Part shown: in pieces, positions 9,607-63,400 of the stretch
How the letters are laid out: each line of letters begins with the position of its first letter
Position numbering within the stretch: the first letter of the stretch is position 1
From: Siphonodentalium dalli
Taxonomy: Eukaryota; Mollusca; Scaphopoda; Gadilida; Siphonodentaliidae
Direction of reading: 5' to 3'
Length of the DNA stretch: 64,000 bases
Assembly: GCA_032622095.1 (NCBI GenBank)
Contig: CP136067.1
Coordinates: 51,995,899-52,059,898 of the forward strand
Position numbers and translations under genes: made by a program
The notes under the pieces: model-generated
Told to the model about the DNA's origin: nothing
The model's database searches: none
What the model saw: the letters and a program-made list of their open reading frames with translations, nothing else

Positions 9607-9659
9607 ATACAGGGTTTCCACTATGGGGTCAGGAAGTCTCATTTTGAGTAATTCACCCA

Positions 9660-10010: not shown

Positions 10011-10033
10011 CTGCCTGATCATTGTTAACTAAT

Positions 10034-27727: not shown

Positions 27728-28526
27728 ACAAGAGCTACGCTGGGCGTGCAATATACGCCCTATCTTGGGTCGGCGGAAACTGGTAAAAAAGGGGCATAAC
27801 TCTGATAAAAATTGGCGGACGGAACTCAAATTTGAACTTGACCTGTGTTTTCTCCTAATAAACCCACATACCAAATTTGATTGAAATCGGTTCACTCTAA
27901 CTAAAGTTATCATCCGGACAACAAATTTCAGGGATTTTCTAAGTCAAATTACGTCAAAAAAGGGGCCATAACTCTCGCAAAAATTATCGGATTAAAACGA
28001 AATTCGGACTTGAGCTGTATTTCGATATATGTAATCCACAAAAAAACGGGTTTTGCGTATAAACATTCCAAAATCGAGTTATCATCCGGAAACCAAAAAA
28101 CATAAGAAAAACTGAATTTTCTGAGTCGAAAAAGGGGCATAACTCTGCCAAAAATGGTCGGACAGAACCCAAGTTCGAACTTGACCTGTGTTTTGGTGGG
28201 AGAAAGTAATATACCAAATTTGGATTCATTCCGATAAACTATACTAAAGTTATCATCCGGACAACAAATTTCAAGGATTTTCTAAGTAAAAAAACGTCAA
28301 ATAAGGGGCATAACTCCGGTGAAAATTGGCGGGCGGAACCCAAATTCGAACTTGAACTTACTTTTCGGCTAATAAACCCACATACCAAATTTTACTAATT
28401 TTGGTTCACTCTAACTAAAGTTATCATCCGGACAACAGGTTAACGGACGCCCGCCCGGACGCCCGCCCGGACGGACGGACGGACAGACCAATACTATAAT
28501 ACGGCCTTTTTTTCAAAAGGGCGTAT
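27728..28526. mobile_element. Family F element inserted in unit 3, no target duplication
   Basis: A 799-bp insertion relative to unit 2, where the empty site reads 'aacaactattaaaaatgaaa'. It starts ACAAGAGCTACGCTGGGCGT and ends near AAAAGGGCGTATA. The core has four diverged repeats of about 170-185 bp built from 'gggcataactctg', 'aacttgacctgtgtttt', 'aaacccacataccaaattt' and 'aagttatcatccgga'. Near the end there is a (GGAC) tract at 28470-28490. Absence of a target duplication and an internal tandem core recall Helitron/Helentron-type elements (inference). Confidence 0.72.
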
Positions 28527-30403: not shown

Positions 30404-33400
30404 CTGTAAATAAATGTTGACAAGTTCATTAAAGGTAATCAATCTATTCAGTCCCCATATCATCAAGAAACAACAACAACAACATTTCTTCAAAATACGC
30501 TTTACTGATCAGAATCGATTAATTGCAACAAAATAAGGCTAACCACTGTACTATGGTATCAAATTTCCCAAAATGTGTTATTTATCAACATTACTATCAC
30601 TTGAGTATAAACAAATTTGGCCGTTTTACCACTTGATTTTAGAGTTATCCATCTTCATCCACAATTTTGTCCGAGCCTGTAGGTTTGATAACTGTTTTCT
30701 GGACCACAAATAATTGTACATCTCGAGAAAGAATAAACTTCAAAAATTGGTATATGATCACTCTGAGCTTTGATGGGTGGTGGGTTCCTCGACTCGAATC
30801 AAATATTTTTACCCCCCCCCCCCCTCCAAGCCAATGAAATAGTAATTTTGGAGAATTAATTCGGATAATGCATCTTTATAAATAGTAAATACCAATGTTC
30901 AGAAGAAATTCTATTTGTATGTATCCTTTGTAAACACCATTTTAAAACAAAATCAGTCTATTTATAGTTAACCACTTTAAAAAAAATGTTTTTGGAACAA
31001 TCATTGAATCAAACATTGCTTCCAACTCTCTATGTTGCTAACACACCTAGTTATATTTTATAAGACACCACAATTATAAATTAGTAAATTCAAAGCCTAA
31101 CAAGGACCTTAACTCTGGTAAATTGAACAGACCGCAGACATTTTCAAACTGCATATATATTTGAATAATCCATATACAGTAATGCCCTAAATAATCGACT
31201 CCTTAACCACAGCAGAATTATGGGTAACTTTTCAGGATTTAGTCGGAAATATGGGTTGTTGCCATTCATCGGAAAGCTCTCAGATAACTCTTTACCCATA
31301 ATTCTGCTGTGGTTAAGGAGTCGATTATTTAGAGCATTACTGTACCAGATTTGAAAACAATCAGATAACTATAACTAAATTTATCAGTCGAAAACAAAAA
31401 TAATGGGAAAATTCTAAGTCTAACAAGGACAATAACTCCAGTAAAATGGGCGGATATATATTTAAAATGGGCGGATATATATTTAAAATGGGCGGATATA
31501 TATTTAAAATGGGCGGATATATATTTAAAATGGGCGGATATATATTTAAAATTGCGGATATATATTTAAAATGGGCAGATATATATTTAAAATGGGCGGA
31601 TATATATTTAAAATGGGCGGATATATATTTTCCTGTGGGTGATACATGTATAAAATCTGATAACAATCAGATAACTAAAACGAATGTATTCATCCGGAAA
31701 CCAAAATAGTCTGCAAATTCTAAGTTGACATGGACCATGGACGGGGGATAATTTGATGTGTTTACAGTCAATGGAGTGATTAGTAATGCCGAAAGTTTAA
31801 GTAATACTAGATGTCAACATGAAGAGAAAGTAGTATACATGTAAAAAGTTTAAAGGATTCTGCATGTAAGGTGTGACCTGTAGGGTTCTGTAGTCATGCA
31901 AAGAGTACAATCCAAGATGGCTGCTGGCAGACATGATTTTCCAAAAATAACGTTCAAATTTGATAGCTCCCATCTATCTAGAAGTGATCCTAAACATTCC
32001 TCTTAATTCTCCAATAAATGCAGGCTGCAGGGTGTGCTGATAAATCCAAATTTGAAATCCAAGATGGCTGCTGATGATCAAGTATTTCCCAACAAATTTC
32101 AGTAAAAATGGAAGGCTCTCATCTGGAAGTCACCTCAAAGATCCATATGAAGTTTGGTGAAGTCGAATAACAGATGTGACCTGTAGGGCCATGTTTTCAA
32201 ATGAAATTAAAATTTTTGTTATAGCTCCCATCTAGTGGTGACCCCCGAAGATCCATATGAACTTTGGTGAGAGGGATGTGATCTGAATGGTGTGCCAAAG
32301 GATTTAGTCATGCAAAGAGTAAAATCCAAGATGGCTGTCGGTGGCCATGTTTTTTAACAAAATTCAGAAATATTCAATGAATCCCATCTAGTGGTCAACC
32401 CCGAAGATCCATATGAAGTTTGGTGACATTTGGATGAGAGATGTGGTCTGTAGTGTGTGTCAAAGGATTTAGTCATGCAAAGAGATAAAATACAAGATGG
32501 TTGCTGGCGGTCATGTGTTTTAATGAATTTCGGAAAAAATTGATGGCTCCCATCCAGTGGTCACCCAGAAGATATGGTGATAGCCTGAATTGTATGGTGC
32601 TTTCAACTTTCAGTCAATTTGGCAAAGCGATGATGGCTATAGATAACCAAATTAAATTTTATTTGGCCATTTAAAGTGATGTGAAACACTCCGGTATGGT
32701 GATCAAATAGAAATGGAGAATAATCTTGTTCAAAGTAGTTATTTTTATGAATATTAATCCAAATTGACAACTCACACCATCATTATGATATCAATTACAT
32801 GCAATGACTCTCGGTGTCGAAATCATTTGTGTTTGTTTATCGCCGTTAGTTGCATTCCGAATCCAGGTGTAAATATTTACAATTGAGCATAGTTCAGATG
32901 ATGTCTTCTATGGAGTTGTATGTTCGATCTCTTTGAAATATTCAGCAATGTTAGTAGAATGCTATATTCCCACTTATCAGTTTCACGCACCCGAACAAGT
33001 CCATAATATCTTTAAAATAATTCTGGTGGAAACCAGAAAATATCTGAAGATCCTTTTATTACCGAATTGATTCTCTCTTTTAATATGATTACTCACAGAG
33101 TTAGAATATTCATCCCCCGCTGCAGCCAGGAGGCGCCGCCTATCCAGAGGGTGAGGCATCAGGACTGACCGTGAAAGAACGGCCTGGGCCCGACTTCCCT
33201 GTAGAGTGTGTATCACATTGCAGCTACAAATTTGTTGTGGGTCCGTGTCAGAGTTCACGGTCACAGTCACCATATCACAGAGCTGCAATAAAACACACTT
33301 CAAATGTCAGAGTTAGGTCAATATAAACAAAATAGTTTGTTCCTACAAAAACACCTGCTGTTGACAGGTTCTTCAAGCATATTGATCTGTCATGAATAAG

Positions 33401-36400
33401 TAAATTTATAATACTGTCCATCTCTATTCATCCGACAGAACTCTTTTAACCCTTTACCCAACAAACCGGCCAAAACCGGCCAAATAAAGCTTCAACAGCC
33501 TAAAATATCTTCGGTCTGTCTCAATAGAACCATACAAATATGGATATCATTGGAACCGGCTCCTTGACCACATTGTGATAGTTACAGTTATGCCCTGTGC
33601 CAATGCATTCTCTTATATATGCGAGTCGACCATAGGTCGCCTCGCTTATATAAGAGAATGCATTGGCCTAAAAAAAAATCTTTTTTAAACACTTTTTACC
33701 ATTTTTTCTTACATTCTTTAACAATTTTATAATTTTTAATGTGTTAAGCCAATGCATTCTCTTATATATGCGAGGCGACCTATGGTCGACTCGCATATAT
33801 AAGAGAATGCATTGGCACAGGGCCGTTCTGTTGGGTAAAGGGTTAAGACAACACACAAGAGTAGTACATTACTAAGATAGTAACTAAGAAAAATATTACC
33901 CGCATTATTATCTCAACTTCATAAGGTTCCCTGTCAAAACTTCAAAAACGTCCAAGGTTATGTAATGGTGGAATATGATCTCTACGGGCGTTAGCCAGAG
34001 TAGAGATTCATGGCATGATCTAATTTATGAACTGCCATAAATAGGTAAATATACAAATACTGCCCAGTGCCCATCCCTAATCTTCAAGACACAAAATGCA
34101 CCAATGCCTTATTTCTTTAAAAATAAATCACCACCCAACATGTTGTTTTATATAGCAATTAATGTATATTGCATATAAACAGCAACCCTGTTGAAGCCGA
34201 GGTTAAATCAAGTTATACATTTCCATGTCTTAATGAGTAATATTGTATCCAAACATCTTTTATTAGATATCTGTGGGTGTGAAATTATGGGAAATTGTGA
34301 AGTTCATTACCGTCATTGGTGATTTAAATGAGCGGGTGATTTACGCTTAAAGTCTGCAGTACAACAAGAAGGCAACATTACTTTGACGTAAACCAGTATT
34401 ATCCCTACCGATTTTCCTAGCTGGTTTACGTCAAAGGACTATATCAATACCTGCCTCCACACAAAAATAATTTGAAATAGATATTAAAATGGAAATATCT
34501 GCCTCCCTCATCGCTTTGGAAAAAATATTCACTGAGAAACAAACTATTTTAGCCTATTTGCTATAACTGCTTTTCATAGGTAAAAGTTTTCATGGTCAAT
34601 TACCAGTCAGAGTACACCGTCAAAGTCAAAATAGAGCTGAACTTGCTTCAAAGCGAACCTTGGTGAGAATATAGCTGCCACATCCTTGATATGGGCCTAA
34701 AGATTATTTAAAGCAAGCCTTGACGAGAATATAGCTGCTGCATCCTTCCAGATTATTTACTGCAAAGCCTGCAAATTGCCTGCCATTCGCAGAATGAGGT
34801 CCCCAGAGGGTGAATTTAGGGATGCTATCCCGCACAGCGTGCCAGCATCACCTAATTCACCTCTGGGGACCTCATTCTGCTTTGGCCTCATCTTCTGGAA
34901 AGTATCTATAGTCCCAATTGTTTCTAACTTTACTTTTTCAAAATATATAATCAAGGTGACTAATGGTTGAACAACACCAACTTCAACTGGGGGAATTCAA
35001 TCTGATCCTAGGTCTCCCATAGCAGTTGAGGCCTAAGCAGAAAGGTCCCCAGAGTGTGAATTTGGTGACTAAATTCACCCTATGGGGACCTCATTCTGCA
35101 AATGACAGACACGATATTTGCAGGCTTGTTTAATTTACTGCTTTCATAAATTTGATATGACTGCCATCAAGATCAAGCCTCGAAATAGTGTGTCTGTCAT
35201 TTTCAGAATGAGGTCCCCAGAGGGTGAATTTGGTGATGCTAGCCCGCTGTGCAGGATAGCATCACTAAATTCACCCTCTGGGGACCTCATTCTACAAATG
35301 CAGGGTTTCCGTTAGTATGGCTCAGCGTCTGTAGGACGGCCTCATTCCCCTCGCAGCTGATCTATTTGATTCATACATGTACCAAAAGTCAGTAGAAATA
35401 TGTCATAAAAAATCTGGTTGCAACGGGAGTTCGGAGGTTGAACAGAATACTGGTGGAAAAAGCGGGTCAATTGAGCAGTGTGTTACTGGTAATCAAAGCG
35501 CTAAAACTACAACGTAATATTTGGTGTGCATTGAAATAGCGACGTTATATACAGTGTAATAAATGTCGCGGTAACATCAAAGAATGTCCGACTGCTGAGA
35601 TTGCACAGGATTTCTGTGGTTGAAACTACTCACGCTCGGAGATCCCGTGCTATCGTACAATTACATAATTTGATCGAAGAATGCCGAATTGCTGAGTTAG
35701 GCAGAGTAGGGATCAACATACGCCAACAGGCAGTTCTCCTACCAAAGGAGGTATATACCTCCGAGATCCCGTGCTATCGTACTATTATAATACGGAACCT
35801 GTCCCAAATCAGTCTTTATAGCGGGAATTCATAGTGACAACACCATTCATTTGACCCATATTACATACATGAGGATAAACACAAAAAACATACCACCCTG
35901 CCCCCCCCCCCCCCCCCCCCCCAAAGGGCCCCAATATGGAGATAAAGTCAAAGTACGGTCAAGAATAGTTTTGTTGTCCCGCCTGGGTCCCCAAACACAA
36001 ACAACGGCACACATGTTCCCATTTCCCGACAAAACTCAATTATATTTTATAACATGTTGGCTAAAACTCTATTCTATAGCAGCGGCCATCAGTTGTTGGA
36101 CTAATACAGACTATTGACAAGCTACGCGTTTGAAAGATTTCGCTACCATTCGTATTTCGCTGCTATAAATATATGCTGCAGATAAACCCTGCAGTATGAC
36201 GTCACAGCGCACAAATAGTTTTACGATTGAATACATGGAATATATCAGTTTCATTTTCACAGGAGCTACTTGAAATTCTAGGAAATACTTAATTCAATTC
36301 TCCCAGCTAGGTATTATTGGAAAATGCATAGATGCTTTTTAGTGTTTAGTTTCATTATACCTGTCAGAATCTTATTGTAAGTTATAAATTTTTAAACGCT

Positions 36401-39400
36401 GTAACTTGTTCATTTATATAGTCTTCAATCAGATGGCAGTCTTCCGCGCGTAATTATATGATTAATTATCTGGATACCATCAACAGAATTAATGCACCCA
36501 CGGAAAATGATCGACAGTCGACTTGCGTAATATACGTAGCTTGGTATTGCTTTGTGGGACCCTCAGATGCAAGGAAATTGCTACTTTTCAGTGTCAAATA
36601 AATTTGTTTTCGCCCCACGGGACGAACTATGGTCATCCCGTCGCATTATGTGTTTCTCCAATACGGACTCATTATATTCCCCATGGCGGAAACCCTGGCA
36701 AATGACAGGCTCACTATATCATGGCTTGATCAAGACAGAACCACACACACATGAGACTATGGTAAACGGTATTACAAGACTATGTTGTGGCCCAATGTTA
36801 CAATGAGATCCATCAGGCTCGATTTGTAACTTGCCTCATAACAAATGAGTGCGAAATGGTTCACATCCTTCACATGCCTTTATGGTTGTGTATTTATTAC
36901 GCACCAACAGTCAATACTTTATGGTATTAAATAAGTGTTTCTGTATGGTTTCCATGCTAGTTAGTAATCTACTCAACGCAATATGATGTTGAATTATTGT
37001 TGTAGTACCAGTTGGGTTTGTATGCAGGATATAATTTACACCACAGAAGCTATTGGGATCTCACAGGTGCATTAAGGTAAAATTACCGCATAGGCTGAAG
37101 TAACGTAATTAAAAGAAAGATAGCTATAAGTGTGTAATAAAAAAGTCCGCTATCGTAGCATACCTGATGACGAACATTCGCATGCTTGGCTGTGGGCCGG
37201 AAGCTCGCCAGGAAATGCCTTGTCAACGGTTCAAAACACAGACTAGTAAGTGTACCTGAAACAAATCAACTCAGACTGAGTTCAATCAGCAGATTAACCC
37301 TATCATACCGGGAGCTGTGCTGGTGCAGCATTAAAGATCATGTGCCAGTGCATTCTCTTATAAATTAGGGTTTAATCCCGGGACCGGGAATTCCCGGGTT
37401 CCCGGTAGTCGGTCCCGATTCCCGGGAAATTCAATGAGCAGAACCGGTAATCAAAGCCCCTATATAATTAGCGATATACGTTTGATATTAGATGCAATAT
37501 ATGATTTCTTTTTATAGAACAAAACTTGAATATTAATGTCTGCCCTCACGGAAGCAGGGTCAACAATTTAAAGAGTCATGATTGGCATTGACGCATGCTG
37601 CATGCACAGTCGCGTCACTCACGAGTCACTCACTCGTGATAAGTGATGTCCCAGTCGCAGACTCGTTGGTCGCGGGACTCACAGAGTCACAGGATGAACA
37701 TGGTTGTGTAATGCCATAATGTGCATACGTGACTAACGTGAGGCACATTGAGCGATTTGATTGTCTTTTAATAAGAATGACGCATTTCACGTGCCAAAGG
37801 CTGTGAAGTGCATGACGTCAGATTTCTCAGAAATTCAGAATAATTTATTCTGTGCTCACCTGCAAATCGGCTGTGATTATATAACAGACCAAGTTTACCA
37901 CCGAATTTGAATTTGACCGATTGGCGGGTAGGCAAAATCTATCGCCGGTATGGGAGTACTTTGAGAAAGTGCATCCAGACAAAGCATGGTGCAAAAAGTG
38001 CATGAAGCTCCTGAGTGTTACCGGAGGCTCACAGGGGGGCTGTCAAAGCATTTGCGATCGGTCCATGATATTTCCATAGTAAAACGGCCACTGGACCAGA
38101 AGTGAAGACTGAAACGTTGCCGCATCAGAACTGTAGACCAAAATTAGTGAAATGTGGGTTGTGAACTTGTGGGTGTAAACAATTCGGAACACAATTCTTT
38201 TGTTGTGCAGGATTTGGGTGGTGGGTCCCAGAAAATGCCGGATGAAAACAAAGGGATACCTGCTTTTGTCTCAATAAAAGGTAAACCACCACCATTATGC
38301 ATAATTCCGATAGTAATTGCCCTTATTTTGGAACACCGGCAACCGTAAGAAACACACAACTATTTTCCGATTACGACATTAATACTATAAGCTCACAGAC
38401 AAACTGTGCAATATAAGGGGTCTCATCGCTTCAAAATATCAGTGTCATATTATGAAATACTTGCTGACGTTACAAAATTATATACAGCTAACATGTACCG
38501 GTATATACGACGGTCTTAGTGATCGATCGTTGTGCGATCTCCTTTTTCTAAGGAAGTACTTCGGTCGCGAAAACAGTTAACTGACTCAATGTGATTAATA
38601 TCGCGTATTCATCAATTTAGTTATCTATTATGTAACAGCCTAACAGGAAGTCGGAGAATAAAATATTGGACCTTTGTTACAGGTTTTAGTTCGCGAAATT
38701 ACGCGGTCGGAACTTCGGAAGTTAGGAACTTTGGAAGATGGTATGCTTTTATTTGTTTATTTTGATGTATGTACCTGAAAATAAGTCTGACATAAGAATA
38801 TAAAGAATATGATATGTGCCCTACTTGTGTTTCTGTGTCTTTAAACCACGAAATATTCAGTTGTCAGTCATTCATGTTGGTCTGTAAATTACCCGGTTCC
38901 CGGTTCTGATGTCGTTTTCAGTCCCGTTCCCGGTTCCGCTAAATCCGGGAATATATTAAACCCTATTATAAATGCGAGTATCCCATAGAGAATGCACTGA
39001 CGTTCAAGGTAAATATTGTTAGGCTAGTGCGTATATGTCTATGGGAGACTCGCATATATAAAGAATGCATTGGCACAGGTTTTTTGCAAAATTTCAGGAA
39101 GTTCCAGTCATGGAAGGGTTAATGTGTCAAGGTCCCTATCATGGCTTTGTTATTCCCTCCTAATTCTCTGTGCCACTCATTTGCCAAAACTAAATTTTGC
39201 AAATTTTCAATTTCAGCTCTTCTCCTTTAGAATAATAATTTGATAATTAAAAGCAAATTTAGACAATCCGAGATTTATATTTAATTCAAATTAAGTCTAG
39301 AAAGAATATTCTAAACAACATAATAGAACCCTATTTTGAAGGTGCTTCTGATGACAAAACTATTTAGCTCCATGGCCCCACAGATGGAAAAATAATGACC

Positions 39401-45400: not shown

Positions 45401-48400
45401 TCATAAAATCAAGGTGTCATAATCCACCCTGATTAGAAAAGGCTCCCGCTGTTAATTATTAGGCGTCACGGAAGTGTGATGTTGCCGACAACAGACTCCA
45501 TCTAGATTTGGCAGCACGTGTCTTTTTGAGAAATAAGCATTGGAATGCCGTGCACACGTAGCAGCCTCATCATTAGAGAATTGAATCACTATCCTGTCAT
45601 TTAAGACTGATTATAAAATAAGGATTATGGTTTGTTGTCGCATCCTACTTTGAACTGTTTGTTTGCCCATGTTTAAATATTTGTTATTGTGATGTTGTTT
45701 TCTCTTGTTCAAATATATTTTGTTTACATTAACTTAAACTATTAACTTAGACTACATCCACCCATGTGGACCTCCTTTTGGAATTTACTGCCGTCCATTG
45801 AATGCATAAAAATCTGTGCCAGAATTTTCTTCAGAATGAACAATAAAGAGCGTTTGTGCGTGATAAGGTATTTTTCGCCTGCGAAGGTTTTATGAACCTA
45901 AATATTCAAATCCTTTCAACACCGTAGTTACTTTAAAGACAAGACCGCGACAGCATTCCAGTTGACGTTTGGTAAAACTTGAAAGGGAATATCGAGGAGA
46001 AAGTGACATGTCACAATCATGTTAACTCAAACAGTTACGATTTAGCAAACAGTGACGATTGCTACAGTCCTCGCGCCCAATTTCTGAATAATGCTAACGT
46101 AATTGTAATTCGCGTGCACCTGGCATTTGAGATATACAGATGTGCGCCAAATTTATGGTGATTATCAACCTCCCAATCAAGGGTTTCACTCACTTTTTTG
46201 TGGCAATATACGTAAACAATACTTTATAATGAATATATAACAAAATAAAAATTGAATGATGCATGCATTGAATAAAAGAGACTACGTGGTTCGTTTATGT
46301 GGATTTGCAGGGTTCGTACACTAATTTTAAAGTGAAATTCCAGTATATTTCCAGTATATTCCAGTATTTTTTTCCAGATTTTCCAGTACGAGTTATCGTG
46401 CTTATTATACAGGGTTTCCTCTAGACTATGGTGTCAGGGAATGGTCCCCTTTTAGTGTCAAGGGAATTTATACTCCAGAATTAATTTATATACCAGTATT
46501 GCTTTTAAATTAATATATCCATGCCTTACATTTCCACAAGACAGTCATTTCAACAACTATATTGCACACCATATTCATAATAATAATCTTACAGCCATTA
46601 AAGCTATTAGTTTTAAGGCCACCATATCAGACCACAAACCACTCCTGGTATCTATTAGCAGCAATATAATACATACATGAAGGTAGACTATACTGGCTGT
46701 TCAGTCAGTTGGATGAATGACTACCTTCATGTATGTGAACTTAACCTACCGACCTTGTTTTATTACCAGGAATTACATGCCGTAATGACTGATGTTATTT
46801 ATATTGCCCAAATAGTTTTGTACATTTTAACTGTTTATTAAATCAACTCATAATTGACAACTAATCCTTGGTGTTGATTGATTCTCTCATATTAACTGGC
46901 ATATTTATTATTATAACATGGATATGTCACATTCTTCCACTTATGTGTACTCCTGAAAATATTATAACATATCAACCTATAGATGGGAAAATTAGACTGA
47001 TTTGAACTCACACTCACCTTTGTTTTACATCATTAGTGCAATCATTTATCTGATAAATTTAACTGAACTGAATCATTGGCAACAGACAGGAAATGTCTCT
47101 CCTATATAATATTTGAATGAAAACTAATTGTTGATGAACTTGATTTTGAAAACAGTAACTTATGTCAACACTGAACGTATATACATAGATCTGGAACACA
47201 CTTATTGGGTTTTCATTTGATCAAGCAGTTTCTTGATCCGACTGTCAACATTTGTGACTTCAGTTTGCTTCTCGCTGGCTGTTCGCCGCAAACTATTTGA
47301 TTGGGTTATCAAAGTTATTTGACGGGTGGCCTCTGCCTTCTCTGCCGTCGAATCTGCTGATTTGATCAAGCTTACGATATCTTGCTCCAGGCGCTTCTTC
47401 TTCACTTTGAGATCATCTAACTTGTCGACATCAGCTTTCCTTTTCAGCGCATTCGAATCCAGAACTTTTTTCCGCCTTTCATCCTCGAGAAAGTTCATGT
47501 ATCTCTGCCTTGCACTTGCAGCGGATAATAGTAGGGCCATGGACATTTTCACACCTGACACACCTCCAGATGCCGCTACGTGATCACAAATTACTCGTTT
47601 CGCTATGAATGATCGTTCTTGTAAGTTTTCCTCAGCTATTTCTTTATTTACAGAGAAACCTCGCTCTACGCTCGCTTGTCCATGGGATAACATCAGAACC
47701 ATTTTTACAACAAGCCACAGATTTCGATAATTTCGTTTTCTCTCGGGTGTTCCATTCATTTTCTCATAAAGCAGCTCGTCCACTCTGTCCTTTAGTGGGT
47801 CAAAACTGGTGAATACTGATTCTGTCTGAGCAACTTCAGTGTCAATGAAATTTGTGAACTCAAGGCAGACGACATCACACTTTTCTTCCTTGAGCTTCCC
47901 ATACTCTACAAGAGCTGACAGCATTTTCTTCATTAACGTTAAGCTTGCGTCCTTTTTAACAAAAGTTCTTGGGTCCAAACACTTCATACTTCTGACCAGC
48001 GTATACAAGAGAGGGCTTTTCACTTGCAGTTTTGACACAATTTTCATTATTAACTTCCGGCACTCAACCCTTGTGTCCAGACATTGACGGTCACTAACTT
48101 TCTTATTTGAAAGTAACTGTTTCATCTTGTTTTCTGCTGTGAAACCAATGTCAATTTTCCTCATCGGACAGAAGTTTTCTTCTTTAGTTATATCTGGATT
48201 CATCATTTCTGCAATTGTAATATTCTCTGTAACTTCTCGCTTGATAAATCTCTGGAGCAAACCCTTGAGTAATTTCCCGAGATCACTAGACAAGAAGGGG
48301 AGCATAGGCCTGTCAGCTTGGTATAGTGTCAGAAATGAAGAAATCTGTCTAGCAACTGACAGCATTGAATTGATTTTCACAATGATCAAGGGGTCAGCTG

Positions 48401-51400
48401 ACATGTCCTTGACAACTTCGTAAGATTTAGTCATCATCACTCTTGTGTCTTTGATTTTTTTCTGCTGTAAAGCTGTTATATATATGTTCACATTGTCCCA
48501 TACCTTCAACACACGCTCTGCGACATGAACGTTCTCAACCCAACGGTGCCGGCAGACTTTGATGGGGAAGAGAGAGCTTCCTGTGAGTTTCATGTAATCC
48601 TCTCGCCTCGCGGGAGTATCTTTGAACAGTCGATACATTGAACTAAATAGATCATCCAAACGCCATCCCGACTCTTGAACACCATCTCTGAATGCTCCAT
48701 GCAACACATGCAAACCACAAGTGCCGATATTTATTGCCGTTTCTCCGGTAAGATTTTTCAGCTGTGTTTGGAAAAGATCGAGGAATTTCAGATTAGCGTT
48801 TGGCCCATCCATTGAAACTTGTAAAACACGATTCAACTGTAGCTGTTTGATGCTCTCAGTTATATGCTGGAGAATGTCCTCACTGTATGCATGGCCCATG
48901 AATTGTGAAGTGAGGTACCTTGTGGAAACTTGGTTAACATTCCAAAATCTTACATGCACATCAAGTTGTTTGTTTTTCGTTTTTTCGTTCATCGATTCAT
49001 CAAAAAGAACGACAAAGTCAGATTCATCATTCACCATACTCACTAACTGTGTTGTTAGGTGAGGTGCAATCCCAAAACATGCTACATATGCTGTTTTCTT
49101 TTCACCGCATGAAAATCGCTGGGCAATATTGCTATCTGGAAACATGCTTTTAAATAGGATGTCAATGTGTTCATTTGATTTATAAGAGTTGTGACACGAT
49201 ACCGTATGAAGTGTCCATAACACTTCTGACTTCAATAAATCTTCTCTGTTGCCTAAGCCTGAGGAATTCCTGGTAGTGGAAGAAGATCTGGTACCAGTGG
49301 CAGTGGCACTGGCAGTAGGCCTAGAACTATCAGGACTAGAGACTGTAGAAGATGCGTTTGTGGTTGGTACTGCACTGCTAGTTGTAGAGGTACTAGGAAC
49401 CGAGAAAAATGTCCTCACATTCACCCCCTCCCTCTTCTTCATGGCATCGATGTGCTTCTTCCCTTTGGCGTGCGATTTGATAGCAAATTCCCCCATATTG
49501 CCGATATCGAAACTTTTGGCACACACATTACACTTCGCTCGCTTGGGGTCACCAGGTACAGATGACAACCAACCTCTATTTTCTAGCCAATTATCGTTAA
49601 ATTTGCATTCTCCTCTCATATTTATATGTTTTGTCACGATTTTGCCATTTATTTATTGTAATTGCGCGGTATCGAAAGTAAAAACAGGAAGTTTAATTAA
49701 TTTACTGCATCATGCGCATGGCAACAATCGCAGGACCGGTGCCCAGGAAAATAAACCGGTGCTATGCGCGGTATCGAAAGTAAAAACAGGAAGTTTAATT
49801 AATTTACTGCATCATGCGCATGGCAACAATCACAGGACCGGTGCCCAGGAAAATCAACCGGTGCTCAGGAAATAATGACCGGAATTCCAGTATATTCCAG
49901 TATCGATCGGCCGGAGATCGTTTTTCAAGTATATTTCCAGTACTGGAAAGTTGAATTTGCTTTATCCAGTATATTCAAGTTTCCAGTAGGGGCGTGCGAA
50001 CCCTGGATTTGCAATAGATCGGATATGGGAGATCATGGGATGATTAGAACTGTGCTAAATTAATCGGCTTTCCGGGAAACACGGCACCAGAGCGCATCAC
50101 TTCAACGAAACGGGAATATCTGAGAATGTACTTCCGTTGCGAAAACAAAAGTATCGTGGTTCTCAGTTTTTTTTATTGGCGTATACGGTGCCGCTGTGTA
50201 TTCCAATGTTTATTTATTTACGAAACTCTATTTCTCTTTCACCCTTGAATGAAGTAATTACAGTAAGCATGTTTGTTGAGATAATATACTTGTCAATATA
50301 TGTCATAGCTGTCTGTTTTTTTAAATCCAGATTCCTACATAAATTATACCAGTAATAGACGCATGCATGCATGACGTATTGACCGCGTGGTTGTTTGTGC
50401 ATGCAAGGTTTTCCCCGAATTATCTGCATTTTCTGATCAGGGCTAGTGTTTTTCATAACTTGTCAACATGACAATTTTTATTTGAATATGATGACTAAAA
50501 TCTTATCTGTACGAATGTTGGTAGAGGATACAATAAATGGTGTATTTTCAATAGCTTGTTAATGCATAATAAAACGGAAAAATTAAATGAATTGAAAAGC
50601 ATACCGCCCGTCCCTAATTTTGGGGTGTCCGTTCGGGGAAACGTGTGCATTATTCCTTTTGACCTTATACACGTGTCCCATCACAATTCTAAAAAACATT
50701 TCAACACACAGTGTTTGTGTAATCTTTATTCAGTCCATCCTCGGGTGGCAAATACCGTGGAATTATAGAGCAAAGCGTAAAATGTCGCATATTTCCAGTT
50801 TCTGACGCTGGCAGTTAATTTTCACTTGGCAATGGATTTGCCAAATATATGGATTGAGAATATTACACTTTTATTCAATATGCTCATTTGACCATATTTA
50901 AAAAAAAAATAATAGCAACTCTAATAAAAAACATGGGACTAATTTTATTTACTTATTCTCGGTTATGGTGTCAAAGCATACCACATTAGAACAAAATATC
51001 GATAAGCTCCTCCCACAGCCAACCAATTAAAGAAGAGAATAAAATCTAACAAACTAATCCTGGATGATTGACAGGTGTATGTCGACGTGATAGCATGCAC
51101 GGGATCGACGCATGACTTTAATTTTTTTTTATATTTGACAACAAAGTTCCATTAAAATCTTCGTTAGATCGTTGAAACAGTGGGGTTAAATATAAATGTG
51201 ATTCGTCTTAACGACCTTAAAGCCGATATTATGTACGGATTTAAATTTCTTTTAATTCAAAATACTAACCTTCGTATATTTCTACTAATAAAAAACATGT
51301 TTTAAACTCGAGAAAAAAGACGATACAAACCAGAAATCTAACCCCGGTGTACATGCCGTTCGGCCGTGGTGTTCTTGCCGTTCGGCCGCGGTGTACTTGC

Positions 51401-54400: not shown

Positions 54401-57400
54401 TAAAAAACAAAGAACGCATATCAAAATATTGCTTTGGCAAATATATTAATCATGCACAGATAAAATATAAACCAAATAGTAATATGCAACTATATTTTGC
54501 CACAATGCAAGAAAATTCTAAGATTTGTTGCACAAAAGTCAACATAAGAGTGTTGGCACTACTTCCATGACGTAATTATATATGTAAATTTCTGTTATCA
54601 CATTCTGAATTCAATGAAACTGAGCGCTCTCACCCAATAGATCTAGATCTGAAAAATCCCTCATGAACATGAAAATTTTAATTGACCCCTGTCTGCGCAC
54701 ACCTGTGCTTTCTTGAAGAGTGACTGACACTGATATACCCTTCCATGAATGCAGCTTCCTGAAATTTTGCGAAAACCCTGTTCCAATGCATTCTCTTATA
54801 TATGTAAGTCTCCCATAGGGAGTTTCACATATATTATATGAGAATACATTGGCCTAACAATATTTACCTTGATCTTGTAAGCCAGTGCATTCTCTTATAT
54901 ATGTGAGGCGCCCTATGGGAGACTTGCATATTTAAGAGAATGCACTGGCACATGATCTTTAATGCTGCACAAGGGCAGCTCCCATCATCAAAGGGTTAAG
55001 GTTATTGAAAAATAACCTTAAATGGCTAATTAAATGGCAACAAAAAATACTGGTATTCTATATAATTTGTACTTACCTCCCAGATTTTGATGGTCCTGTC
55101 TATAGAGAACTGGCCTGGAAGGTGACTTTGGGTTTGAGGCTCTGAGGCAGAATGTGCACTTACACTGGAAGCCGAAGTGGACCTAAAAGTTCATCCAAGA
55201 AATATAACGAGGGTCTAATAAAAGACTTGTGAACATGCTATAAGTGAGATACTGGAGCACCATTACTGAATATCTAATGCTTTCTAATAGTAAATGGTTA
55301 ACCCACCAAGTTAAATGAAAGATTCAATGAACATGCCAGTAAATTTTCAAAACAATTCTCCAATAAATTCAACTGCAGGGTGTGCCGATGGATTCAAATT
55401 TGAAATCCAAGATGGCTGCTGGCACCCATGTTTTTTGACAAATTTCGGAAGAATTGGACAGATTCCAGCTAGAGGTCACACCAAAGAACCATCTGAAGTT
55501 TGGATGAGGGATGTGGCATGCAGTGTGTGCGAAAGGCTGGGGCCCTTTCCCAATTGGGGTAGAATAATCCCTGGGTTTACTAACTTCATCAAGTTCTCCT
55601 GGTTCTGTACATGAAGCTTGAGTCTGACACACTCGTCCTGTGCAACCTGGTGCTGCATCCTCATCGTAGCCAATTCAAATTCAATCTTCCTCCTCAGTTC
55701 TCGCTCCTTATTGAGGTCTTTGAGGGCCGCATCTCGTTCACTGGTATCCACAGCCTGGAGAGAATAACAACATACAGTAATGCCTAATTAATCGATTCCA
55801 TAACCACAGCAGAAATATGGGTAATTTTTCAGGATTTAGTCGGAAAATATAATTTTTAAAATTAAAATTAGTTTTTCCTCAAGGAGAAGCCCGAAACTGA
55901 ACTATATGGATTATTATCCTCGGCCTTGTGTTATCAGGAGGGTTAAAATTTATTGTCCGTTTATTTGCCTACTCCGGTCAATCAGCGACTCCGGTCAATC
56001 AGCGCTCGGATTAGCTCACGCATGAATGCGTCCCGTGCAAATCCCGCGCTCTTAACAATTCATCTAGCCAGTTTTATTTCCGACTTTTAATAATAAGATT
56101 TGCGAGTCGCGGGGTTGGGAATGGCACCGCCATGGGAGGGATCTATGATAGTTCAGTTTCGGGGTTCTCTTGAGGAAAAACTAATTTTAATTTTAAAAAT
56201 TATATTTTTCCGCCAAGGAGAAGCCCTTCAACTGAACTATATGGATTAGAATGCAAGCCCAGGAGGAGGCAACGAGCAATAAATTTAATATTCCAGTTTG
56301 ACGGGAATGTACTCTTCCACACAGATTTAGAGCTGAAACGGTTAGACGGTTAACCGGTTAGCATCCGGTTAGCGACGTAACCGGTTAGAAACAAATGAAC
56401 CGGATGTAACCGCATCCCGTTGTCAGTTGAATGTGAACGTGAATAATCCTCAAAATATTAGGTTAAATGATGCAAAACTAATACTAAATCCCGTGTCACC
56501 GATAGTAGAGTGCAATGCAAGCATTAATTGGTACACGCGGTAGTATCAGATACTTAGTAGCAATTCTCGAACTGCCTGGAAGTGTCGGCGACCTTCAATC
56601 AATTCCGACCCTTTGAAGTTTTCTTCCGACAAAAGCACGTGTGCAGTCTCTGTGTATCAAGTCTGAATGCACACAAGGAAGTGACAACGTAAAAGTGACG
56701 TTGTGTGGCAATGCGTGCTTTCGTAACTTAATAGTTAATACTGCACGAAGCAACATGGATTCAAATTGGAACCACACCACGACATACTATATATAAAACT
56801 GTTTTACAGTGGGTTTTATAAAAACTATGTAAGTCGACAAAGTTTGAAGATTGAGATCAGCTGCACAATGTCTTCACTCTTCCCGTTCTTCCTCCGTGTT
56901 GTGATTTAATATGATCAATTCAATTGAGTGACTCAAACAGACATCGTAGTTGAAGCAACCCAAAACTTCTTCAATAATCTTCCCTTTTATCAAGGAAATT
57001 GATGCTCCATGCTACTCTGTAACTGCATGGTTGTGCCTGTGGGACTAATTAACACTCAATTTGGCAGTAATTGCTATATGTTAAGTGATTGCATACTGAA
57101 ACCGAAACGTAAATTATATAACCTCCCAAATTTCACTTGCTCATTCCCCATCACGAGAGCCAGCAAATTGAGCAAAAGAACAAGGAATGCGTGTTTTTGA
57201 ATATCGTTAAATGCCGTGAATAAGGTCTTTATTTCAGCTACTACTTCTCACCTAGGTTTGTCCCTGGAGCATGGCATAATGTTGACATAATTAGTGTGAG
57301 AGAAGTCCGCTAGATATTTAGCGGTTAACCGGTTGAAATCCGGTTAACCCCGATGGTTAACCGGTTAGAAGAATGGGTCAACCGTTTCAGCTCTACACAG

Positions 57401-60400
57401 ATTTCATGTAAATGTGATTTAGTCATGAATCAGCTTTGATATGTTATGTGAAAGAGCTCATAAATTCAGATTCCAGCATTGCTCAAGCTTGTACCTCCCC
57501 CCTTGTCTTTTGGAATAAACATCCCAGGCAGTGCCATACCATACGTGCCAGCTACTAGTAGAAACCGAGCAGTAGAGACTTCTTCTTCTGCAGCTTTTTT
57601 CTCGTGTCCTGCGATGAGAGTGATGGCGGTATTTACTATTTATATCTTCCCAAATAGAAAGCGCTATTGACGGTGCGTGACAGCGAGTCTTCCTCACACA
57701 GAACAGCCTCCAAAGGCTCGGGTGCTATTGTCCCGGAGGATTGGTTGCCCGAATCTCAGAGAACGGCACTCTGTCTGCCACGGTCTGCTGATGCAGGACC
57801 AGGGGGCGCGAACTGGTACAGCCCGAGGACTGGTACAGTTGTGCAAAGTTTGTGTAATTCATTGTAACAAGATTTGACACATATCCTGTGATGAAGTTTT
57901 TACAAGAGATCGACCCGTGTCGTTTCCGTACGCAAAGCGAGTTCCCTAGGAACGACAGAATCCTTGACCGACAGTGGGAACCACCGTCGGCCCGAGATCC
58001 TTGCTCATCGTCGTCAAAGCCATCAGACGCCAGGAGAATTATAGAAACTAGAAAGCATGTCAGGATCGACGCCAGCAACAGAACAGCCTGCATCAGGTTG
58101 AGGAAAGGTACTAGAGGGAAGCCCACACTGGGAATGGCTCGAACGAGGAACAATTGCGCTCGCAGTTAGATTTTAAGGTGTTATTTCCCACCCCAAGGCC
58201 AAAATGGCGGAAAAAAGGGAAATTGAAAGGATCCATTTGACCAGGGAAAGCCCCCCACCGAATCTCCCAAATGCAGGTGGTCCTGACACGCTGACATAAA
58301 CGTCGATGACATACCACTAGGATCCCCTGACGGCAGAGGAGCAGGCCTGGACGTATCACTTGGTATGACGTTTCCAGGGGGACAAGACCGACCCTCGTAA
58401 TGGAGTGGGCCACGGCGCCGTGGGGAAGCGTCAGAAGGCCAGTTGGCTGGTGCGCTTTGTGCGGCACGGGACAACGAGGCTTCCCCACCCAGAACAGTCG
58501 CCATAGGCGCGGGTGCTTGTGTCCTGGAGGATTGGTTGCCCGAATCTCCGGAGGACGGTACCCTGCCTCCCACGGTCTCCAGAAGACGGGGCTTGCAGCA
58601 TGACCAGGGGGGACCGAATGGTTCCTGCCCGAGTTAAGACTGGTACGTTTGCTCGAAATATAAAACCATGGACCCTCAACCAACTATGACAATATCGCGT
58701 ATATTCATGAGCAACCCGTACGGCCATCAAAGTCGAATCTCGTTCGACTATAAGCAAGACAAGACATTCTGTTAGTTATTAGCAAGCATAATATACAAAA
58801 CATTTGTTAGTTATTGCAAAACAAGGTTAATAAGGTAAATTCCGTTATTTACTATGGCCACGAGATCTTACCTGCTAGAAATTAAACCGCAGGTAAGATA
58901 CTGTCTTTTCTCGGCGAAGAGGACGATGAGATCCGATTTCTCCTGTGCAAGAACATAGCGGTGTCCTTGCTTACGGTGAGGAGAACGTTTTATACACTTA
59001 CGGAAAGTCCGCAGATGGTGGAGCAGGCCTGGAATATCCCGAGGGAGTATGATTCCAGGGGGACAAGACCCACTCTCGTAATGGAGTGGGCCACGGACCG
59101 TGGGGAAGAGTCAGAAGTCTCAGTCCTTCCCAGGAGACAGGAGCAATTGTTCACGCAGCCGTATGCAATTGTAATTTTCTAATTCACGAATATTAAACTG
59201 TGCACTGTTCCCTCTTGACAAAATGTGCATGGTATGGGAATGTGAAAGTGCCATGGAACATGCATGTTTTGAGGTCTATCCCACAATGACATTGAATTTG
59301 AGAAAAACACAACTGATGATTATACAGGCGCAAGTACATCCGTCTTCTGAATTGCGAGAGCAAATGAGAGCTTGAGCTGCGTTTACATCTGGGAAGAACT
59401 GAAGTCTGGTTGGCTGGTGCGCTGTTAGTGGCACATGATGAGTCTTCCCCCACCCTAAGGCTCAGAAGCTGTGGCATTCGCCCTTGAAGATTTGTTTTCC
59501 AAATCAACGATGGTAGCACCCCGCCAGTCACTGGTACTGGGCAGTGGTCATGGACAATATAAAGGCTTCTTGGGGAACGGCGCTTTATATGTGTGATGAT
59601 ACAAATGCTTTCATTTGTGTTATTCATTTAGGTTTTCTATTTACCAGATAATCATATGGATATGTAGTAATAGAAGGAGAAGAGCCATGTTTTGGACTCT
59701 TTTGAAATTGGCAGTGGCAGGCCTGCCGAATGCAAAATAAATCGTAAGCCGTAACGTATTTGTCGGTTGTCTGGTTGTGCTTAGGTACCCATAGGTTACA
59801 CAAACTGTTATATTCAGTATCACGAGAGCCACATACAACTTTGACGCGACCTAGATTTCACAACCTCCAGGTGAACCGAACCGTCGTTCGCCACCAATAC
59901 GCAGGCCTGCAGTGGTCGTGCGCAATATAAATAGAAACTCTGTTCATGTAACTGCACTTTATATGTGTGACAATACAAATGCTGTCCTTTCTGTTATTTG
60001 CCCGATAATCAATTGGATATGAGGCAATAGAAGGAAAAGAGCCATGTGTTGGTCTCTGATGGAAATTATAGTGGCAGCGGCCCTGCGCAATATAAATGCA
60101 TTTCCTGTAACTGTGCTTAATACGTGAGTGAAGGCTATTTGACATTTGATCTTTTCTATATGTGGAAATAGAAGGTAGAGAGCCAAGTGATGGACTCTGT
60201 TGGAAAGGCTATTGGCAGTGCATCGGGGGCACATGACAATATAAATGCATAGTAGTTCACCTTGACTATTCACGGATTGAAAGCGCAGAAGTATGTCGGT
60301 ATCAGTGAAAATTTACGCCATATTGATAGTCAGTTCGTATGTCATTGAGCCTTTGAGGCACTGATACCCTTGTACTAGTATGGAACAATTATGGCTGGCC

Positions 60401-63400
60401 ATACATGTTTTTAAGCTCACCATTTTGTATCATTTAAATTCGTAATTTGAATGTATCGACAAACACTAATATCTGAGGATAACAGTTCAGATGTTGTCTA
60501 TTTGTTACAGTGAACACATGGAAATGTCAAACATCAAAATCATCAAAAGTATAAACATTGATTGACTGAAAATTTATTGAGACACTGGCTAGCCAATGAA
60601 TCATTTCAACACTGCGACCATGCTAGGTCACACGGATATGGTGACTTGCCACAAGTAGGCCAGCCAAAGGCTCGCATCCAAAATTTTTCCAAAGAGATCT
60701 GACCACGGACGGAAGTATCCTTGGATATTTAAGCAAACTATAGCTGAAGGTTCAGGCTTCTGCATTTGCATATCTGTGCAGTCATGGAACAGGGAAGCCC
60801 ATTCTGCAAAATACATTGAGTGATTGCAAAGAAACAGACACCGAAATTGTCGCCGAAATAACGTCAGAGTACCGATATGAATTGATGGAGATCGCCATTC
60901 GACAATGGGAACTCAGGCTTCAAGATTCGACGAGAATCACAGAATCGATTCCCGTAATGATTCTCACAAAACATTACAATTTTCAGTGCCTTATGACTGA
61001 CATGATTCAGCATTTGATTCTTGTAAAATGAAATGTATTTTGAGCCCTGGAACTTGAAATGAAAATCCTTGGTGCCCAATCTTGTGTCAGATAATCCTAG
61101 TCCCCAATCAAACCAGTTGCACGATTCGTAGCAAGCGGACACTGTCAGTAATACTGGACAGGCATGTAAAGAAAGAGACTATTCAAGAGACACAGCATTA
61201 TTTGAACACAGGCCATATAATACTATATGTTATAACAAACATAATCTCATTGTTTCTAACGATTGTTCCGATAATACAATGAGGGAAAGGAAATGGAATC
61301 GCAAGAACAGAGTCAGAATTTCAAATAAATATCTTGAAGTCGATGTAACGTTTGCGACGTTCCAAGTATCCAAATACGAGCCCTCATGTTAATAGTAATA
61401 CATTCGGGCTAGCTAAGATTTGCAAATATTAATCGGTAAGCACAATTAATTATAACGACATGTTGTATATGTACAATGATGTTCTGTGATAATCATTTAC
61501 CAAATGTCGGTTAAGTTCCAGTCGCTCAACTTCAACTTACAATTAGTTGAGGCAAAAGAAATTTCATTGGATTACAAGTTCTATCTTGTTTATTAATACA
61601 TGTAAATTATCGCCAAAGGAGACATTTCTGTCCTGGCCAACTTTCTGCGCACTAACAGAGCTGTTGCATATACGATTAGGTAGTGTACATGAAATGAACG
61701 TAGCGAGAAGTCGGCGTCATGAAATATAGTTAGCACGAAATTAGGAGACTTCGCATACCGTACCACATGGACTCAGAAATCGGACGATTCATGCCACCGT
61801 ATATGTTGCACAATAATGCAATATAGGTTCGCTACAAGTAAACGATGTGCGTCTGTAGTCATTGTCAAAATGGCCATCAATGGCGAAGTTCTCAACGTGA
61901 TTTTGTCGATTCCAATCCCAAAATGTTCGAGATAAAATGTGTCGATAAAAAACACGGAATTTTTATAAATTGCGTTGCGCATACTAGGAAACGAAGAGTT
62001 TCTGCGCGTACTTAAAAATATTAAACGACCGGGTAAGCAACGGATAAATTGCAAGTTTGTTATCAACAATAAATATTGAGTTGATAAACTCGCAATAGAG
62101 AAATACTTCCTTTAGTTAAAACCACGTCTGATAGGTCCAAGGAGAGAAATAAAACTGGCTAGATGAATTGTTAAGAGCGCGGGATTTGCACGGGACGCAT
62201 TCATGCGTGAGCTAATCCGAGCGCTGATTGACCGGAGTCGCTGATTGACCGGAGTAGGCAAATAAACGGACAATAAATTTTAACCCTCCTGATAACACAA
62301 GGCCGAGGATAATAATCCATATAGTTCAGTTGAAGGGCTTCTCCTTGGCGGAAAATATGGCTTGTTACCATTCATCGGAAAGCTCTCACTGAATCCTGAA
62401 AAATTACCAATAATTCTGCTGTGGTTATGGAGTCGATTACTTAGGGCATTACTGCACATACAACATGCAGCAGCTAGTTTGAATCCTATAATCTGACATT
62501 TGCAACAAAACATGATCTTTCACCTACTAGTATATCAAATCATTGTACAGTGCTTCACAGGAGTGAATCTATAGTTCGGCATTGTACAGTGCTTCACACT
62601 GTCAAACTCATATCATTGTGCAGAAAGGGGTGATAAGCGGAAGGCTGTAACAACTGATCCATGTACACATAACAGATTTACCTTTATTTTTGCAGCATAT
62701 AGCACCCTTATGTCCTTCCTTGATGCTTTATCATTACACTGAGGGCATCTTCCACCTCCTGGACCTTTCAACCATTTCTGAACACAGCTATGTAACAATA
62801 AACAATATAAATATTTAGCAGGTGGTAGATCTATGCCGCAAATTATTTTCCTGAATAGTGTTCTATCAATATTGCGCAAATTTAGTTTAATTATATAGCA
62901 CAAATGAAATTTCTAATTATTCTCTCTATAAAATAAGTAAAATATTTATAGGCCAGAAAATGGCTGCAAAGCAACCATTCAACGGAAAGCTCTTTCTGTT
63001 GAGCTTTCCAATGAATGGCAACAAGCCGACTAAATCCTGAAAAAATACCAATAATTCTGCTGTGGTTAAGGTGTTGTTTATTTAGGTCATTACTGTATGA
63101 TGGAGAGGTGGTACAATTGTATTTAGTCACATGATATTAGTAGACATAGTTGTGATCTTGGTTGCAAACAATATCATAATGGTGGCAGTTTTATTTCATG
63201 TTATGCATAATGAGAAATCTTTGAAGAAATACCGTAAAACAAATTAAACATAAAACAACACAGTTGTGTGAATATGTTAACGTTTTCGCACTTGGTTGTA
63301 GTGCCATGAGGTAAAACTCCAATCTTGGTTCTCGTTTTACCATCGCATCACAACAAACACGTGTAATGTGTAATAACATTAACAAGTTCACACACTTGTG

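Follow-up and report, generated by a model that had tools for sequence, protein, structure and literature searches.

The window, a stretch of 64,000 nucleotides from the 2.2-Gb, nine-contig genome of Siphonodentalium dalli surveyed here, contains a 6.5-kb segment with long inverted ends and no evident transposase gene. What kind of element is it, and how could it have moved? The initial annotation took it for an undescribed mobile system. The analysis presented below indicates a mobile family, though not one of an unknown kind: it fits the structural features of DIRS1-like retrotransposons that were tested.

Anatomy of the element

Comparison with 20 other copies fetched from the genome gives the limits in Table 1, with about 1–4 bases ambiguous at each border owing to an A-run on both sides; they replace the boundaries first proposed (55851-62348). 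The inverted ends are near-identical, as originally described, with a perfect match over the conserved part of the inverted terminal repeats (ITRs) and a second of 43/43 (56206-56248 / 62313-62355). The length of 6.5 kb holds for the window copy and includes a later insertion of 1,066 bp, flanked by a 10-bp duplication, ACACAGATTT (56319-56328 and 57395-57404); this insertion is missing in all 20 other copies. After removal of this insertion and its duplicated 10 bp, the window copy measures 5,432 bp.

Along the element, which is oriented on the minus strand of the window, the order is left terminus, interior, internal complementary region (ICR), right ITR and right extension. The outer 24-47 nt of the ITRs are divergent. 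The right extension (about 25 nt, AT-rich) reaches past the alignment of the left terminus and is complementary to the ICR only; the outer right terminus was found in 19/20 other copies, L027 being the one without it. The nested terminal foldback of the initial annotation is real (arms 55844-55883 / 56169-56208, 40/40 in a self-comparison of the window), but it corresponds to a DIRS1-like ICR. Its two abutting halves, about 102 nt in total, were found in the window copy and in 20/20 others, some of them with point changes or small deletions. In its centre the ends stand joined, reading CGGAAAAATATAATT in element orientation. DIRS1-like elements have NTT ends complementary to a 3-bp circular junction. 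The centre, CGGAAAAATATAAT or ...AAGATAAT, permits an AAT or AAG junction, of which the A-run obscures the exact 3 bp; the junction would be AAT, or AAG in five copies. The base preceding the right terminus is A in 20/20 copies.

Table 1. Features of the element and its target in the window
Feature	Position	Strand	Basis
Interrupted palindromic repeat (target), left half	55783..55847	+	comparison with uninterrupted copies
Complete element (subfamily A), oriented on the minus strand	55848..62355	-	comparison with 20 other fetched copies
Outer right terminus: right extension (~25 nt, AT-rich) and divergent ITR part	55848..55894	-	seen in other copies
Right ITR, conserved part	55895..56080	-	186/186 against 62146-62331
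ICR right half, reverse complement of right outer end	56148..56205	-	end-ICR comparison
ICR left half, reverse complement of left outer end	56206..56249	-	43/43 against 62313-62355
Interior, no recognised domain, houses nested insertion	56250..62145	-	ORF and domain scans
Nested insertion, short inverted ends AGAGCTGAAACGG	56329..57394	.	alignment to other copies
GC-rich internally duplicated blocks, 81-85% alike	57661..59117	.	self-comparison of window
Left ITR, conserved part (element orientation)	62146..62331	-	186/186 against 55895-56080
Outer left terminus, plus-strand end ...CTTGGCGGAAAA	62332..62355	-	copy comparison
Interrupted palindromic repeat (target), right half	62356..62445	+	comparison with uninterrupted copies

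Insertion site

The flanks (55783-55840 and 62388-62445) are, as had been recognised, the halves of one palindromic repeat, 91% alike, of which both the window and L028 contain uninterrupted copies. Joining the flanks of the element restores this repeat in full, and apart from the A-run no bases are duplicated. The string CGGAAAATAT, shared by both flanks, had been offered as independent confirmation of the boundaries. This could not be upheld: its CGGAAAA part forms the element's right end in 17/20 rows (19 loci plus the window), whatever the left flank, and L011, L012 and L014 differ from it by one base. The A/T part of the string is composed of target and element end. A fixed-length target duplication was not found in 15 copies, where the longest shared string was 3.73 compared with 3.30 in mispaired flanks. 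Since CGGAAAA belongs to the element and no duplication of common length was seen, CGGAAAATAT was rejected as a target duplication.

Family size and subfamilies

The 39-nt end pattern of subfamily A, to which the window copy belongs, has 531 matches genome-wide (reversed control, 0), or some 265 elements on the assumption of two matches per intact copy. The refuting condition named in the initial annotation, ends that never pair elsewhere, does not apply: among the first 100 listed matches there are 40 inverted pairs within 20 kb, and 20 matches are unpaired. The 40 scored matches of a genome search are spread over all nine contigs. Subfamily B, which came to light by following the L056 locus, shows 817 end-pattern matches (reversed control, 0) and at least 40 ICRs identical across 131 bp (the best 40 of 2,011 candidates); its interior is represented by two 501-bp pieces and short flanks. 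One B copy is nested in an A copy on contig C2. Another subfamily, sharing the 22-nt start but differing at the next base, was considered and rejected: it gave two matches, one of them within the region of L025, whose copy bears a point change.

Among 19 copies with both ends, 12 measure 5.26-5.55 kb and the other seven, including that of the window, 1.4-8.5 kb. The middle pieces of 10 odd-length A pairs were compared with the A interior: seven match it (94-99% over 405-512 aligned bases), L054 matches partially (82-85%) and L056 weakly (76%), and L063 shows no match. Of the 14 aligned copies, 13 are 97-99% identical and have a common interior. The lower value for L020, 87-89%, reflects a swapped block: its window-equivalent 60703-61943 is replaced by a copy of another transposon that has undergone internal deletion. 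At first sight this 1.15-kb block resembled three joined exons, and capture of a spliced mRNA was considered; aligned to the long genomic form, the block shows no GT-AG borders and a reading frame that continues, and the proposal was withdrawn. Direct evidence of an RNA intermediate was not found. The family is large and recently active, and its spread is recent.

Coding capacity of the interior

The initial annotation saw proline-rich, duplicated, coding-like blocks in the interior and no recognisable transposase. The duplications (D1-D8) are real. Their coding nature is unsupported in the young copies, both by domain scans and by the variable sites of the aligned A copies, which show no codon periodicity. 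A domain scan detected nothing in seven ORFs of the window, five of which lie within or at the element, and 75 ORFs with a length of 80 aa or more, taken from five A copies, gave no convincing Pfam match, including any to a transposase or recombinase, the families against which a profile search of the interior had been suggested. Weak Pfam rows extend up to E 0.1, the best being a PHD finger (0.0068) inside the foreign block of L020, and were disregarded. Gag, reverse transcriptase (RT), RNase H, methyltransferase and recombinase domains were likewise not found in subfamily A. The interior may nonetheless derive from coding sequence of much greater age. A RING-type gene with exons on either side of the element was also considered, and found no confirmation in Pfam and PDB sequence searches.

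Co-variation of the ends and the ICR

The outer ends and the ICR evolve together. At the junction base, end and ICR read T/T in 15 rows and G/G in five, with one gap row and no discordant one (20/20 readable rows concordant); the 21 rows comprise 20 A copies and one B copy, and L011 and L012 are a single insertion counted twice. L014 and L015 have a further variant in common, again in both end and ICR. Ends differ from their own ICR by a mean of 2.70 and from the ICRs of other copies by 3.54, both values including a constant offset of about 1. When the pairing was shuffled, 0/20,000 arrangements reached the observed match sum, the relatedness of the copies not being removed by the shuffle. The outer right end of B matches its own ICR at 60/60 and that of A at 90%, and in a B copy from a different contig the left end agrees with that B ICR at 44/44. 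The two ITRs also co-vary, with T/T in 11 copies, A/A in seven and no mixed copy at the sole informative site in 18 copies, a set that leaves out the incomplete L018, L022 and L028.

In 12 of the 20 A copies, end and ICR differ at one or more sites in excess of the constant offset (eight in L009, five in L013 and one to three in the others). These differences, mostly in A/T runs, are taken as later mutation. The joint change of ends and ICR is what ICR-templated ends predict; part of it could stem from shared ancestry or from gene conversion between the arms.

Search for an autonomous partner

The Dam profile PF05869, which detects the DIRS methyltransferase according to the available text of PMC3783388, matches 25 places in the genome; five of these carry a 1,164-aa open frame, and in 12/25 the frame reaches 746 aa or more. 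DIRS-order elements are thus probably present. The 32 listed PF00589 places and the six PF05869 places on contigs C1 and C2 are all more than 10 kb away from the A and B ends listed, the end lists comprising 100 of the 531 A matches and 100 of the 817 B matches (B from C1 only). With the PF00078 profile, 150 of 38,730 candidates were scored, which was uninformative about a partner. At 20 recombinase loci (about ±1.5 kb) blastn gave no row at E up to 1 against the whole element, and five pieces downstream of recombinases shared only short strings with it (best E 0.037). With the ends alone the best match, in L048 (E 0.023), is at chance level; none of the 25 recombinase pieces tested shares the ends. 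Among the places and pieces compared, no autonomous element with the same ends as A or B was found.

Affinities and rival explanations

The available text of PMC3266345 describes DIRS1-like elements, DIRS-1 of Dictyostelium and animal members among them, as having ITRs with divergent and conserved parts, a right extension, abutting ICRs complementary to the outer ends (the hallmark of the group), an AAT junction and no target duplication; the table rows shown there give lengths of 3,974-6,283 bp. The element shares the ITR parts, the right extension, the length, the ICR of joined ends adjoining the right ITR and the lack of target duplication, and its ICR centre would allow the AAT-type circular junction. 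Its order, lITR-lICR-rICR-rITR-rE, is that of DIRS1-like elements in the window and in 20/20 fetched copies, and the ICR is also present in one B copy. Unlike the autonomous members, subfamily A, with its hundreds of copies, has no detected gag, RT-RNase H-methyltransferase or recombinase ORFs, and is therefore classified as a non-autonomous DIRS relative. We consider it very probable that the element is a non-autonomous DIRS1-type (tyrosine-recombinase) retrotransposon, mobilised in trans.

The copies might be rotted descendants of intact elements whose interior once encoded gag, pol and recombinase, and their length of about 5.4 kb does agree with that given for autonomous DIRS1-like elements in the table rows of PMC3266345. 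Such decay is improbable: the 97-99% identity of 13/14 copies with the same interior implies that their spread came after the loss of coding capacity, the variable sites show no codon periodicity, and the 75 ORFs gave no convincing Pfam match. Movement of a DNA-only circle by a Crypton-type tyrosine recombinase, with no reverse transcription, would equally account for the missing target duplication, and the genome does harbour very young recombinase elements with a single ORF of 646 aa, whose copies agree at about 98-99% and the most abundant of which looks Crypton-like. To our knowledge, however, Cryptons have neither ITRs nor an ICR; the co-evolving ends and ICR call for a templating step, and the tested recombinase pieces have no ends in common with the element, which makes this route highly improbable.

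Mutator-like cut-and-paste elements can have ITRs of about 200 bp, and the flanks of the window copy, considered alone, have CGGAAAATAT in common, which might pass for a 10-bp target duplication next to an unrelated foldback in the left end. This is scarcely credible, given that CGGAAAA recurs at the right end irrespective of the left flank, that the 9-11-bp duplication outside long inverted repeats typical of such elements is missing in the 15 copies, and that the foldback of the window and all 20 other copies consists of the joined outer ends. Other large duplications are present in the window, and the initial annotation had named a local inverted duplication as the alternative to insertion. 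The spread of the family over nine contigs (40 scored matches), the pairing of most end matches listed and the rejoining of the interrupted repeat leave that alternative a negligible probability. Helitrons, which are not known to have long terminal inverted repeats, are ruled out by the 186-bp inverted repeats at both ends.

Among elements outside the DIRS1-like group, TOC1 is of DIRS order and similar size (about 5.7 kb), also with no known long ORFs, and differs in its split direct repeats (PAT-like) in place of ITR and ICR. Dasheng, a large coding-free LTR retrotransposon derivative with a putative autonomous partner, is likewise a high-copy retroelement keeping only cis signals; unlike the present element, it has direct LTRs, integrase and target duplications rather than ITR and ICR. 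TOC1, from Chlamydomonas, is called a retrotransposon-like element in the accessible part of PMC7722844. SIRE of Trypanosoma cruzi, a short relative of VIPER according to the portion of PMC6681497 available, is unlike the element in measuring about 0.4 kb, in corresponding to the A2-B2 repeats of VIPER and in having no ITR or ICR.

Proposed mechanism and significance

Since no protein gene was detected while the DIRS inverted ends and ICR are kept, the family probably copies itself with the enzymes of another element. Following the published DIRS model, a transcript lacking the extreme ends would be reverse transcribed by enzymes that a different DIRS element supplies. The outer ends would pair with the ICR, where they stand already joined, and the ICR would serve as the template for their restoration and joining. 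The tyrosine recombinase of the enzyme-supplying element would then insert the resulting circle by recombining its joined ends (around AAAAATATAA) with a short A-rich chromosomal match, leaving no target duplication. Replication via RNA and circular DNA is suggested here solely by the co-variation of ends and ICR.

As far as their available text indicates, the survey of PMC3266345 retained contigs in which RT, recombinase and methyltransferase were present, and that of PMC3783388 only elements with detectable protein sequence; both screened for coding domains and would therefore have missed protein-less DIRS elements. A crude phrase search of the open-licence PubMed Central literature, together with titles and the beginnings of abstracts, found no description of non-autonomous DIRS elements. 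On balance, we think it likely that protein-less DIRS1-type elements have reached several hundred copies in one animal genome (A, and probably also B), which would show ITR and ICR to be sufficient in cis for mobility, and that the lock-step change of ends and ICR is natural evidence for an ICR that templates both outer ends in each round. The family suggests the minimal set of cis signals for an assay of mobility. As ends and ICR can be set against each other, pair by pair, in hundreds of copies, the circle-junction model of how DIRS elements replicate becomes a matter of counting. If this reading is true, ICR templating of both outer ends, a long-assumed step of the DIRS cycle, would have natural evidence.

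Terminal structure of the element

The element at window 55848-62355 (minus orientation, subfamily A) is bounded by the inverted ends of about 200 bp that the initial annotation had described: 55895-56080 and 62146-62331 pair at 186/186 bases. A second inverted match joins 56206-56248 to 62313-62355 (43/43). Inside the left end of the window copy and of all 20 other copies examined, the reverse complement reads ...CTTCTCCTTGGCGGAAAA-A-(T/G)ATAATTTTTAAAATTAAAATTAG... or a near variant, a sequence that fuses the right outer end with the left one. The centre is altered in copy L009, L014 and L027 have small deletions, and others show point changes. The left foldback noted earlier is the internal complementary region (ICR) of DIRS1-like elements.

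According to PMC3266345, the inverted terminal repeats (ITRs) of DIRS1-like elements comprise a conserved part of 31-304 bp and a divergent part of 9-36 bp, followed on the right by an extension (rE) of 9-75 bp; the ICRs total 85-130 bp and overlap at a 3-bp circular junction, the ends are NTT (most commonly ATT), the order is lITR-lICR-rICR-rITR-rE, and insertion produces no target duplication. Compared with that description, the element in minus orientation has a conserved ITR of 186 bp, a divergent part of ~24 nt, a right extension of ~25 nt and an ICR of 58 + 44 nt. The order is identical, target duplication is absent in both, and the junction is readable as AAT, its exact 3 bp being ambiguous.

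Copies of subfamily A

The assembly comprises 2.23 Gb in nine contigs, all of which are represented among the best 40 of 1,295 first-look candidates scored with the 201-bp left end (99-100% identity); the window corresponds to C7:51995899-52059898. Twenty A regions were fetched for comparison; the left end was found in 19, the right end in 19 and both in 18 (L027 lacks the outer left end, and the right end of L022 was not found within the piece). Of the 19 two-ended copies, counting that of the window, 12 measure 5.26-5.55 kb and seven range from 1.4 to 8.5 kb. The window copy owes its extra length to a nested 1,066-bp insertion, with a 10-bp duplication, missing in the 20 other copies (see table). 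L011 and L012 represent a single insertion at two places, with identical 300-bp flanks: either the segment was recently duplicated in inverted orientation or the assembly contains an artefact. The two (C5:225640200 and C5:219755300) lie 5.9 Mb apart in inverted relative orientation and also share an internal duplication.

Searching the genome with 39 nt of the left terminus in element orientation (up to 3 mismatches) gave 263 + 268 matches, and none with the reversed control. Since an intact element yields two matches (terminus and ICR), we infer about 265 A elements in the genome. The ends recur as pairs elsewhere: among the first 100 matches listed (contigs C1 and C2) there are 40 inverted pairs within 20 kb, 29 of them spaced 4.8-5.2 kb, and 20 matches without a mate. 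Within an odd 6.3-kb A pair, a fetched piece (L063, C2:127671300-127671800) carries a minus-orientation open frame of ~146 codons extending past its edge; the piece gave no match to the element family.

Subfamily B and co-variation of ends and ICR

A second subfamily, B, was found via an odd-length A pair on C2 that holds a second kind of copy. Its ICR is matched at 100% over 131 bp by at least 40 loci (best 40 of 2,011 candidates), every one of them on C1. Its left terminus, searched as a 38-nt pattern, gave 411 + 406 matches (control 0); the first 100 listed form 45 inverted pairs with a median spacing of 4.69 kb, leaving 10 without a mate. The B right outer end matches the B ICR at 60/60 bases and the A ICR at 90%, and the B left end, read in the L020 flank on a different contig, matches the B ICR at 44/44. 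Both the left end and the ICR of B read CCCTC, where A has CCCTTC at both. The B ends match their own ICR and differ from A; between subfamilies, therefore, the ICR has changed in step with both ends. The B interior parts seen match the A interior at 76-83% over short stretches, and two 501-bp pieces contain stops in all six frames.

Within subfamily A, the junction base of the ICR is G rather than T in five copies (L017, L020-L023), and the outer end is G in the same five. Over 20 A copies and one B, leaving L027 (no outer end) uncounted, outer end and ICR read TT in 15 and GG in 5, with one gap row and no discordant row. L014 and L015 share AATATT at both outer end and ICR. End-ICR differences average 2.70 for a copy's own ICR versus 3.54 for those of other copies, a constant offset being part of both figures. 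In 20,000 shuffles of the pairing the observed match was never equalled, a comparison that leaves relatedness among copies in place. Differences beyond the offset are absent from only nine of the 21 rows, namely eight of the 20 A copies and the B row; the most occur in L009 (eight) and L013 (five), mainly within A/T runs. The two ITRs also co-vary: of 18 copies, 11 read TT and 7 read AA at the sole informative site.

Insertion sites and surroundings

The halves of a palindromic repeat reported on either side of the element are corroborated by unbroken copies in the window and in L028, which read GGATTTAGTCGGAAATATGGCTTG apart from a few variants; the interrupted repeat reads ...GTCGGAAAA|TATAATTTT...CTTGGCGGAAAA|TATGGCTTG. 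The split is clean and falls inside an A-run of ambiguous length. The target of the element at 55848 is one of several copies of this MITE-like repeat. The longest string common to both flanks averages 3.73 bases in 15 copies (omitting L011-L013, L018, L022 and L027) versus 3.30 for flanks from different copies, individual copies sharing at most 6. The base preceding the right terminus is A in 20/20 copies. L016 sits inside a different repeat, a diverged unbroken relative of which lies at window 36351-36697.

Features in the window and in other genomic regions
Feature	Position	Strand	Remarks
Nested ~1.07-kb element	56329-57394		ends AGAGCTGAAACGG; inverted subterminal repeats rich in TTAACCGGTTA; 10-bp duplication ACACAGATTT
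Palindromic MITE-like repeat (family B of the initial annotation, not subfamily B)	1369-1541, 7710-7882, 20362-20534, 31181-31338, 63026-63091; L028:9267-9784		outer sequence CAGTAATGCCC..
Transposon with GAAGATTCGGC ends	L020:4023-5335; also C7:192810002, C2:49524576		PHD-like zinc-finger frame
816-aa open frame	47202-49652	-	no Pfam match
Exon-like frames either side of the element	62613-62912 and 55476-55787	-	one RING-like, one coiled-coil-like

Large near-identical direct duplications (1-9466, 2643-20803, 9502-27731), of 5.5 kb at 99.5%, 4.9 kb at 99.6% and 3.1 kb at 98.4%, account for much of the window's first half. The 816-aa frame gives the impression, by composition, of a transposase-like protein. 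The flanking exon-like frames may resemble RFWD3, for which Pfam and PDB searches gave no confirmation; the element may sit within an intron, in sense orientation.

Coding content and search for an autonomous partner

No convincing Pfam match was obtained for seven window ORFs or for the stop-to-stop ORFs of five A copies (75 in number, each 80 aa or longer), and variable sites in 14 aligned A copies are spread evenly across codon positions; the coding-like interior once proposed is not borne out. Its internally duplicated GC-rich blocks do exist. The best Pfam row, a PHD finger (E 0.0068), lies in a foreign block of L020. There, an internally deleted form of the GAAGATTCGGC-ended transposon took the place of part of the element; among 40 scored places of 551 candidates, 3 match this transposon unbroken and 37 in separate segments only.

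A genome search with the recombinase profile PF00589 scored 150 places out of 1,445 candidates; the top family resembles a single-ORF Crypton. Twenty of these loci and five downstream pieces have no ends in common with the element. Loci L029-L047 are very young, Crypton-like single-ORF tyrosine-recombinase elements, with an intact 646-aa frame and 98-99% alike at many places. With 150 of its 240 candidates scored, the Dam profile PF05869, which according to PMC3783388 detects the DIRS methyltransferase, matches at 25 places. The frame is 1,164 aa in five and at least 746 aa in 12, and DIRS-order elements are therefore probably present in the genome. On C1 and C2, 0 of 32 PF00589 and 0 of 6 PF05869 places lie within 10 kb of A or B ends among the matches listed.

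Assignment of the element

Phrase searches of the open-licence literature found no description of protein-less elements with ITRs and an ICR. The element, which the initial annotation took as a candidate for an undescribed mobile system, belongs to a mobile family, but its kind is known. Apart from the 3-bp junction, ambiguous in its exact bases, the structural features tested for DIRS1-like membership are present, and the coding features were looked for and not found; the element is therefore a non-autonomous DIRS1-type element, and it very probably works like a DIRS1-type retrotransposon.
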